64,000 bases of DNA from Asaia bogorensis (GTDB lineage: Bacteria; Pseudomonadota; Alphaproteobacteria; Reyranellales; Reyranellaceae): contig CAMDQJ010000005.1 of the NCBI GenBank assembly GCA_945905835.1, forward strand, positions 1 through 64,000, written 5' to 3'. Below are positions 16,062 through 19,475 of the stretch, piece by piece. Numbering within the stretch: position 1 is the stretch's first letter; the number at the start of each line of letters is the position of its first letter. Made by a program: the position numbers and the translations under genes. The notes under the pieces were generated by a model. That model did no database searches and was not told where the DNA came from. It saw nothing but the letters and a program-made list of their open reading frames with translations.

Positions 16062-17273
16062 ATGTCCGTCCCCGCCGCCGCTCCGCGGCGCGCCCCCGCG
16101 TTGGCCATCGTCCTGTTGTCGGTGGCCGCCTTCGCCTCAGCCGCCAATATGCGCGTCATCGACCCGCTGCTGGTCCAGCTCGGCGCCGCCTTCGGCGTGA
16201 CGGTGGGCGAGGCGTCGATCGCGGCAACGGTCTTCCTGCTGGCCAACGGCATCTTCGTGCTGGTGCATGGGCCGTTCGGCGACCGCTACGGCAAGATGTC
16301 GGTGGTCAGCATCGCCTGCCTCGCCGCGGCCGGCTGCTGTGCGCTAAGCGCGCTCGCCGGCTCGCTCGGCATGCTGACGACGATGCGCTTCCTGACCGGC
16401 GTCACCAGCTCGGCGATCATACCGCTGGCCATCGCCTGGGTCGGCGACAATGTCGGCTACGAACGGCGCCAGGCCACCCTCGCCCGCTTCCTCACGGGCC
16501 AGACGCTCGGCCTAATGACCGGTGCGGCACTGGGCGGCGCGCTCGGCGACTGGCTGGGCTGGCGCTCGGTCTTCTGGGTGCTGGCCACGATCTACATCGC
16601 CGCCGGAGCCGCCCTGATCGCGGTGATGCTGATGCGGCCCGATGTGGCCCGGCCGACCGAACGCGCGGCCGGCTCGATGCTGGCGCAGATGCTGGGCGTG
16701 CTGCGCCGGCCGTGGGCGCGCACGGTGATCGTCGTCGTGGCGCTCGAGGGCGGCGTTTTCTGGGGTGCCTTCACCTTTGTAGGCGCCGACCTGCACCAGC
16801 GCTTCGACCTCGGCTTCGCCGCGGTCGGCCTCGCCGTCGCGGCGTTCGGTGGCGGCGGATTCATGTACGTCGTGGTAGCGCACCATCTCGTGCGCCTGCT
16901 GGGCGAGCGCGGTCTCTGCCTCTGGGGCGGTGTGGGCCTTGGACTGGCGTTCGCGGGACTGGCCCTGGCGCCGTCGGTCGGCTTCGCCTTCGCCGCCATC
17001 GTGCTCTCGGGCGTGTCGTTCTACATGCTGCACAACACCCTGCAGGTGCATGGCACGCAGATGGCGCCGGAAGCGCGCGGCAGTGGCCTCGCGCTTTTCG
17101 CGCTCTGCCTGTTCGTCGGCCAGGCGGTCGGCGTGCCGGTCGCCGCGCCCGTGGTCGACCGCTGGGGCGCGCCGCCGGTGTTCTGGGCGGCGGCGGCCTT
17201 CCTGCCGCTGCTGGCTTTCTGGTTTGCCGCGGCGCTCAGGCGGCGTCAGTTCGCCGGCGAAACCCGGAACTGA
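16062..17273 (+). CDS. MFS transporter
   Basis: Twelve-TM pattern; GPFGDRYGKMSVV; RRQATLARFLTGQTLG. Confidence 0.85.
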   Translation: MSVPAAAPRRAPALAIVLLSVAAFASAANMRVIDPLLVQLGAAFGVTVGEASIAATVFLLANGIFVLVHGPFGDRYGKMSVVSIACLAAAGCCALSALAGSLGMLTTMRFLTGVTSSAIIPLAIAWVGDNVGYERRQATLARFLTGQTLGLMTGAALGGALGDWLGWRSVFWVLATIYIAAGAALIAVMLMRPDVARPTERAAGSMLAQMLGVLRRPWARTVIVVVALEGGVFWGAFTFVGADLHQRFDLGFAAVGLAVAAFGGGGFMYVVVAHHLVRLLGERGLCLWGGVGLGLAFAGLALAPSVGFAFAAIVLSGVSFYMLHNTLQVHGTQMAPEARGSGLALFALCLFVGQAVGVPVAAPVVDRWGAPPVFWAAAAFLPLLAFWFAAALRRRQFAGETRN

Positions 17274-18226
17274 TACGGCTCTTCCAGCATCTTCGCTTCG
17301 TCCGCCGAGAGCGATACCTCCGTCGCCTGCGCGGCGGACGTGAGCTGGTCGAGGCTGGTGGCGCCGATGATGGGCGCGGCCATGTAGGGTTTCGACAGCA
17401 GCCAGGCAAGGGCCGCCTGCGCCGGCGAGCAATTCTTGCCGGCCGCGACCTTCTTCAGCCGTTCGGCGATCTCCCAGTCGCTGTCGCGATAGGTTCCCGG
17501 CTGGACCTGGGCGTCGTTCTTGGATCGCTCGGTGGCGCCGCCGCCTTCCTTGCTGCGGTTGGCGGCGAGGAAGCCGCGCGCCAGTGGCGAGTACGGGATC
17601 AGGCCGACGCCCTGCTCCTCGCAAAGCCGGTTCATCTCGCGCTCTTCCTCGCGCTGGATCATGTTGTAGAGATTCTGCATGGCAATCGGCCGCGCGTAGT
17701 GCCGCGCGTCGGCGATGGCGATCATCTGCGCGAACTTGTAGGCCGGCATGGTCGAGCCACCGATGTAGCGCACCTTGCCCGAGCGCACGATCTGGTCGAG
17801 CGAGTACATGGTCTCTTCCATCGGCGTGTGCGGATCGAGGCGATGGACCTGGTAGACGTCGATGTAGTCGGTCTGCAAGCGCTTCAGCTGCTCGTCGATC
17901 GAGGCCATGAGATGCTTGCGGCCGGTGCCCTGGTCGTTGGCGGCGGGGCTCATGCGGATGCCGACCTTGGTCGACAGCACGATGTCCTCGCGCTTCACGG
18001 TCTTCATGAGCGTGGCGCCCATGATTTCCTCGGAGCGGCCGGCATTGTAGGCGTCGGCGGTGTCGAAGAAGGTGATGCCGACATCGAGCGCGCGCTTGAA
18101 GTAGGCCGGCGCCTCGCTCTCGTCGAACTTGCCCCAGCCGCGGCGGCCCTTGGCGCCCCACGAATTACCGCCGAGACAGATGCGGCTCACGATCAGGCCC
18201 GAGCGGCCAAGCGGTCCATACTTCAT
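17246..18226 (-). CDS. Aldo/keto reductase
   Basis: MKYGPLGRSGLIVSRICLGGNSWG; FFDTADAYNAGRSEEIMG; DYIDVYQVHRLDP. Confidence 0.93.
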   Translation of the reverse strand: MKYGPLGRSGLIVSRICLGGNSWGAKGRRGWGKFDESEAPAYFKRALDVGITFFDTADAYNAGRSEEIMGATLMKTVKREDIVLSTKVGIRMSPAANDQGTGRKHLMASIDEQLKRLQTDYIDVYQVHRLDPHTPMEETMYSLDQIVRSGKVRYIGGSTMPAYKFAQMIAIADARHYARPIAMQNLYNMIQREEEREMNRLCEEQGVGLIPYSPLARGFLAANRSKEGGGATERSKNDAQVQPGTYRDSDWEIAERLKKVAAGKNCSPAQAALAWLLSKPYMAAPIIGATSLDQLTSAAQATEVSLSADEAKMLEEPYQFRVSPAN

Positions 18227-18273: not shown

Positions 18274-18486
18274 ATGAAAGTCCTGATCGAATATTGCGGC
18301 GCTTGAGGCTACAAGCCGCAGGCCCTCCGTGTGAGGGAACGCCTCGAGAAGCTCGGCGCGACCGCTGTCGAGCTCAGGATCGGTAAGGGCGGCCAGTTCG
18401 ACGTCACCGTCGACGGCGCCCTCAAATACACCCGCAGCAAGACCGGCCGCTTTCCGACCGATGACGAGATCGAAGACCTCGTCTAG
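18274..18486 (+). CDS. SelW/Rdx-family selenoprotein candidate (UGA at codon 11 read as Sec)
   Basis: MKVLIEYCGA[U]GYKPQALRVRERLEKLGATAVELRIGKGGQFDVTVDGALKYTRSKTGRFPTDDEIEDLV; TGA at 18304-18306 in the CxxU position; frame stays open to TAG 18484-18486. Confidence 0.85.
18304..18344 (+). promoter_or_regulatory. Putative bacterial SECIS element
   Basis: CCCTC-CGTGT-GAGGG (18323-18337) 21 nt between UGA and a 5-nt loop with G in the second position; additional AGGC/GCCT outer pairing possible. Confidence 0.65.
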
Positions 18487-19475
18487 CGCAGCACTTCCTT
18501 GTTCACGACGTGCGCCTCGATGGGGCGACCGTCGAAGACGCTCAAGATGTTCTCGATGGCGCTCACCGCCATGCGGTCGCTCGCCTCCTTGGTGACGCCG
18601 GCCATGTGCGGGCTGAAGATGACGTTCTCCAGGCCGAACAGCTTGTTGGAGGGCTCGGGCGGCTCCTTGTCGAGAACGTCGAGGCCGGCGCCGCGCAGCT
18701 TGCCGCTCTTCAGCGCATCGTAGAGCGCATCCTCGTTGATGATGCCGCCACGCGCGGTGTTGACCAGGAAGGCGTCGGGCTTCATCAGGCCGAGCGTCTC
18801 CTTGTTGAACATGTTGATCGTCTCGGGCACCTTGGGGCAGTGCACCGACACGAAATCGACCTTGGGCAGGATCGCCTTGAGGTCGGTGACCTTGGTGGCG
18901 CCGGCCTTCTTGATCTCGGCTTCCGGCACGTTGGGGTCGAGCACGGAGACATCCATCTCGAAGGCGACGCAGCGCTTGACCGTGCGCGAGCCGATGCGGC
19001 CCATGCCGACCACCAGGATCGACTTGCCCGAGAGATCGGCCGGCAGGTCGGCCAGGCGCTGGTCCCAGCCGCCCTCGCGCACGAAGCGGTCGTATTTCTT
19101 GGTGAGCCGGGCCGAGGCCAGCAGCATGTACATCGCGTGCTCGGCCACCGAGACGGAGTTGGCGATGCCGGTCGTCATCAGGAAGACGCCGCGCTTGTTC
19201 AGCGCCGGCACCTCGACGGCGTCGAAGCCGACGCCGAGGCGGGCCGCCACCATCATGTTCGGCGCCACCGCCAGCTCGGCCTCGCCGAACCGCGTGCCGC
19301 CCAGGGTCACCGCATGCACATCCTTGAGCTTGGGATGGAGCGACGGCACCGAATCGTCGGCCAGGATCTCGAAATCGACATCGTCGCGCGTCTTCAGGAC
19401 GTCGAGGCCGGCCTGCGGCATGCGGCCGACGATCAAAACCTTCTTGCGGTTGCGGTGAGTGTTGCCCGTGGTCAT
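18483..19475 (-). CDS. D-isomer-specific 2-hydroxyacid dehydrogenase (phosphoglycerate dehydrogenase-like)
   Basis: ILVVGMGRIGSRTVKRC; NTARGGIINEDALYDAL; GAGLDVLDKEPP. Confidence 0.9.
   Translation of the reverse strand: MTTGNTHRNRKKVLIVGRMPQAGLDVLKTRDDVDFEILADDSVPSLHPKLKDVHAVTLGGTRFGEAELAVAPNMMVAARLGVGFDAVEVPALNKRGVFLMTTGIANSVSVAEHAMYMLLASARLTKKYDRFVREGGWDQRLADLPADLSGKSILVVGMGRIGSRTVKRCVAFEMDVSVLDPNVPEAEIKKAGATKVTDLKAILPKVDFVSVHCPKVPETINMFNKETLGLMKPDAFLVNTARGGIINEDALYDALKSGKLRGAGLDVLDKEPPEPSNKLFGLENVIFSPHMAGVTKEASDRMAVSAIENILSVFDGRPIEAHVVNKEVLR

Follow-up and report, generated by a model that had tools for sequence, protein, structure and literature searches.

Here we describe a selW-like gene of the Rdx family that standard open reading frame calling would miss, and we correct its annotation. 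The frame is almost certainly a functional selenoprotein gene in which an in-frame UGA specifies selenocysteine (Sec). At the level of sequence we establish the reading frame, its family, the conservation of the UGA, the Sec machinery of the genome and a conserved SECIS, and from these we infer the insertion of Sec itself. The gene lies in a window of 64,000 nucleotides (the whole stretch of DNA analysed), and the coordinates of its features are summarized in Table 1.

Table 1. Features of the selW-like locus, in window coordinates.
Feature	Position	Strand	Remarks
Aldo/keto reductase gene	17246..18226	-	Neighbour in divergent orientation; synteny shared with Reyranella relatives
selW-like (Rdx family) selenoprotein gene, predicted	18274..18486	+	70 codons including Sec; stop TAG
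Cys8 codon of CxxU motif	18295..18297	+	TGC in 54/54 distinct Reyranella-type sequences
UGA codon, predicted selenocysteine	18304..18306	+	Residue 11; always TGA (54/54 family genomes; 92/92 loci)
Apical hairpin of bacterial SECIS, CCCUC-[CGUGU]-GAGGG	18323..18337	+	Stem 18323-18327 with 18333-18337, loop 18328-18332; conserved pairing
D-2-hydroxyacid dehydrogenase gene	18483..19475	-	Convergent; 4-nt overlap with selW end; syntenic

Reading frame, motif, and family assignment

Translation from the ATG at 18274 yields MKVLIEYCGA-U-GYKPQALRVRERLEKLGATAVELRIGKGGQFDVTVDGALKYTRSKTGRFPTDDEIEDLV, terminated by a TAG at 18484-18486, and reproduces exactly the peptide that an earlier note on this DNA had given for the frame. 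The TGA at codon 11, which the same note had named as the sole internal stop, is indeed the only one, and lies in the context YCGA-U-GYK, such that the CxxU motif is present as C8-G-A-U11. The proposed membership among SelW/Rdx-family selenoproteins also held: when the TGA is read through (Cys for U), the protein matches Pfam Rdx (PF10262) with 57.6 bits (E 1.4e-15), above the cut-off of 22.6, and TIGR02174 (CXXU_selWTH) with 43.2 bits, above the cut-off of 34.2, while its score of 72.4 bits against the equivalog NF041051 (SelTWH_Campy) falls below the cut-off of 88. A six-frame search identified this frame, with its one internal TGA, as the sole Rdx gene of the host genome. The order of the aldo/keto reductase, selW, and dehydrogenase genes is kept in Reyranella-type genomes. 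Neither a Shine-Dalgarno sequence nor a sigma-70-type promoter was evident for the selW gene.

Selenocysteine machinery of the host genome

The host genome is a Reyranella-like draft MAG of 4.07 Mb in 185 contigs (96.5% complete, 0.65% contaminated). The earlier note had suggested a check for selA, selB, selC, and selD elsewhere in the genome, and all four were found: selA (541.7 bits, E 9.5e-163), selB (447.7 bits, above its cut-off), tRNA-Sec (selC; 71 bits, UCA anticodon), and selD as an Ndh-SelD fusion (293.6 bits, CGGC motif), a kind of fusion described previously (PMC2398784). A 6.4-kb contig (C153) carries, in order, selA, a Sel1-repeat gene, selB, and tRNA-Sec, with selD located elsewhere; the placement of selABC on a separate short contig is due to the draft state of the MAG. 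The G+C content of this contig (0.668, versus 0.662 for the window) and its tetranucleotide profile fit the window, and selA was detected in 69 of 75 genomes of the same family, making misplacement of the contig unlikely. Five SelW-bearing family genomes had no detected selA; three of these contain a full selB, one a selB fragment, and the fifth is 60% complete. Co-occurrence of SelW and selA is weak as proof, given that nearly all family genomes carry selA, with or without SelW.

Nesting of selC within selB, an arrangement reported elsewhere (PMC8124441), was rejected here, as the selB ORF ends approximately 31 nt ahead of selC. The Sel1-repeat protein gene between selA and selB occupies L004:4129-4911 (-). 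A phage-type integrase gene (L004:690-1982, -) lies directly downstream of tRNA-Sec (L004:2106-2202, -), and selC is therefore probably the attachment site of an integrative element; the contig does not extend to the far side of the element.

SECIS element

The consensus for bacterial SECIS elements comprises a loop of 3-9 nt, a stem of 4-16 bp, a G within the first two positions of the loop, a distance of 16-37 nt from the UGA, and a minimum free energy (MFE) of at most -7.5 kcal/mol (PMC13188914). The hairpin downstream of codon 11 agrees with this consensus, having a 5-nt loop (CGUGU) with G at position 2, five base pairs, and a gap of 21 nt between UGA and loop; the hairpin is part of the best fold of a 42-nt segment with an MFE of -13.8 kcal/mol. 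Among 31 distinct sequences, which are related and hence do not represent independent events, 27 retain the complete stem of five pairs, while sliding one side of the stem by 1-3 nt as a control leaves averages of 2.0-2.8 of the five pairs. Compensatory stem changes include U-A to G-C and C-G, and C-G to U-A and G-C; GTG-AAG at codons 20-21 (e.g. L017) breaks one of the five pairs. Planctomycete copies carry the loop GGUCU, which we take to resemble the apical loop of E. coli fdhF.

Across 54 Reyranella-type sequences, synonymous sites of codons 17, 18, 20, and 21 are invariant, and Arg21 is encoded by AGG in all 49 cases in which it is Arg, a codon that accounts for 4% of Arg codons in the genes of the window. 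Folding energy of the region was not better than that of dinucleotide-shuffled or synonymously recoded sequences (z approximately 0 or positive), which is attributable to the GC-rich background. It was consequently dropped as evidence for the SECIS, leaving position-specific pairing and codon choice.

By established bacterial Sec decoding, SelB carrying Sec-tRNA-Sec would bind the hairpin just 3' of the UGA and the ribosome would insert selenocysteine at residue 11, giving a 70-residue Rdx-fold protein with the redox pair Cys8-Sec11 of a CxxU motif. Alternatively, the UGA could be read by a near-cognate tRNA (e.g. Trp) or simply end a 10-residue peptide, with selenocysteine involved in neither case. 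We regard this as very improbable in view of the complete Sec machinery, a SECIS that covaries and is appropriately spaced, and the position of the UGA, which takes the place of the second redox residue in a CxxC/CxxU motif.

Conservation of the UGA codon

An Rdx gene was found in 54 of the 75 same-family genomes, each with one in-frame TGA. In a codon-by-codon alignment of 92 homologous loci, some of which are one genome reached by two routes, TGA occupies the position of codon 11 in every locus and Cys in none; the search patterns were independent of codon 11, and the Sec-form query favours its own subfamily. These loci take in Burkholderiales, Desulfobulbaceae, Rokubacteria, and Planctomycetes, and the named relatives are mostly Reyranella and Enhydrobacter. 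In a class-wide sample, 46 of 385 genomes contained Rdx, of which 28 had a TGA and 18 belonged to a distant Cys-type subfamily (one of these 18 genes has an internal TAA).

Coding remains intact after the TGA in all but one of the homologous loci. Downstream of the SECIS, the median dN/dS between the window and 50 relatives is 0.24 and differences are enriched at third codon positions, indicating that translation of the region beyond the TGA is ongoing or ended only recently. A lone in-frame stop in a MAG can reflect an error or an early pseudogene, but a decayed Cys-form gene or sequencing error, in which the TGA would have arisen from a Cys codon by mutation or misreading and the rest of the frame would be a relic, is refuted to the point of being barely conceivable by a TGA held at one codon across independent assemblies (54 family genes and 92 loci), with no Cys form and with conserved coding downstream. 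The same observations contradict the outcome that the earlier note had named as fatal to its proposal, namely homologues bearing Cys or a stop and decaying after the TGA.

In one MAG (L103), the selW frame departs from the family sequence after approximately codon 24 (RVRERL-GPSEPIV...) beside an intact aldo/keto reductase gene, representing an insertion, a rearrangement, or an assembly break. Contigs labelled Asaia bogorensis (L047), Rhizobium sp. Q54 (L071), and Caenispirillum bisanense (L091) carry Reyranella-like selW genes, the first two within Reyranella synteny, and these public MAG names look wrong.

Relationship to known SelW-like proteins

As the earlier note had recognized, the family is a known one: SelW-like selenoproteins have been on record in bacteria since 2005, in 2005-2008 they made up the commonest selenoprotein family of marine metagenomes (PMC1088965, PMC2398784), and they have been reported from surveys of the Sargasso Sea, GOS, and genomes (PMC1088965, PMC2398784, PMC1794560). 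Given this long record, the present gene is a solid annotation fix and no surprise, and leaves the understanding of Sec decoding unchanged. It shares with those proteins (Rdx, PF10262; TIGR02174; NF041051) the CxxU motif, an Rdx domain of approximately 70 residues, and a UGA followed by a bacterial SECIS, but differs in its Reyranellaceae lineage and in scoring under the NF041051 cut-off while exceeding that of TIGR02174. A full-text literature search returned no relevant paper joining Reyranella and selenoproteins, and the Reyranella-like SelW would seem to be an expected, though as yet undescribed, family member.

Animal selenoprotein W (PDB 2npb) and MIEN1/C17orf37 (2ljk) have, judged by sequence, the same GAU/CGYKP-type motif and fold family; the SECIS, however, lies in the 3'-UTR in animals and in the coding region of the present gene. 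Cys-form alphaproteobacterial Rdx proteins (Atu0228-like, PDB 2fa8) have the Pfam family in common with it, but constitute a separate subfamily with CxxC followed by [RKQN]WL and no TGA. The likeliest role of the product is that of a small thiol/selenol oxidoreductase in the cytosol; by analogy with SelW, which has been reported to interact with glutathione (PMC1088965), its redox role may be glutathione- or thioredoxin-linked.

Other selenoprotein candidates

According to a 2006 survey, the Sec-decoding alphaproteobacteria known at the time had FdhA as their only selenoprotein (PMC1794560). A formate dehydrogenase-N alpha match was found in 52 family genomes, nearly all with an in-frame TGA, while 19 family genomes, including two single-contig assemblies, contain SelW without such a match. 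Complementarity between SelW and FdhA was not significant (Fisher p 0.26). The four family genomes with neither SelW nor formate dehydrogenase-N alpha have UGSC genes with a TGA. Family genome G016 (89% complete) has a formate dehydrogenase gene with a TGA (G016:C88:1374-4424) and no detected selA or selB, possibly through their recent loss or an assembly gap.

No Sec formate dehydrogenase was detected in the host genome, suggesting SelW as its sole selenoprotein; this was rejected upon finding two UGSC-family genes with an in-frame TGA. We give even weight for and against the proposal that Reyranellaceae SelW is obligately Sec (never Cys where present, and lost outright where not needed), persists without a detected Sec formate dehydrogenase, and that small Sec oxidoreductases (SelW and UGSC) may retain the Sec machinery there, which differs from the FdhA-only picture of 2006. 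The present gene indicates that Reyranella-type alphaproteobacteria use selenocysteine in small redox proteins in addition to formate dehydrogenase.

The two UGSC-family genes, L178 (G000:C1:130889-131305, -) and G000:C76:8165-8596 (-), are further selenoprotein candidates by sequence; both match NF041046 at approximately 109 bits, short of its cut-off of 125, and the TGA of L178 lies in the context GIGD-U-GSCSSCSLHD (D-U-GSC).
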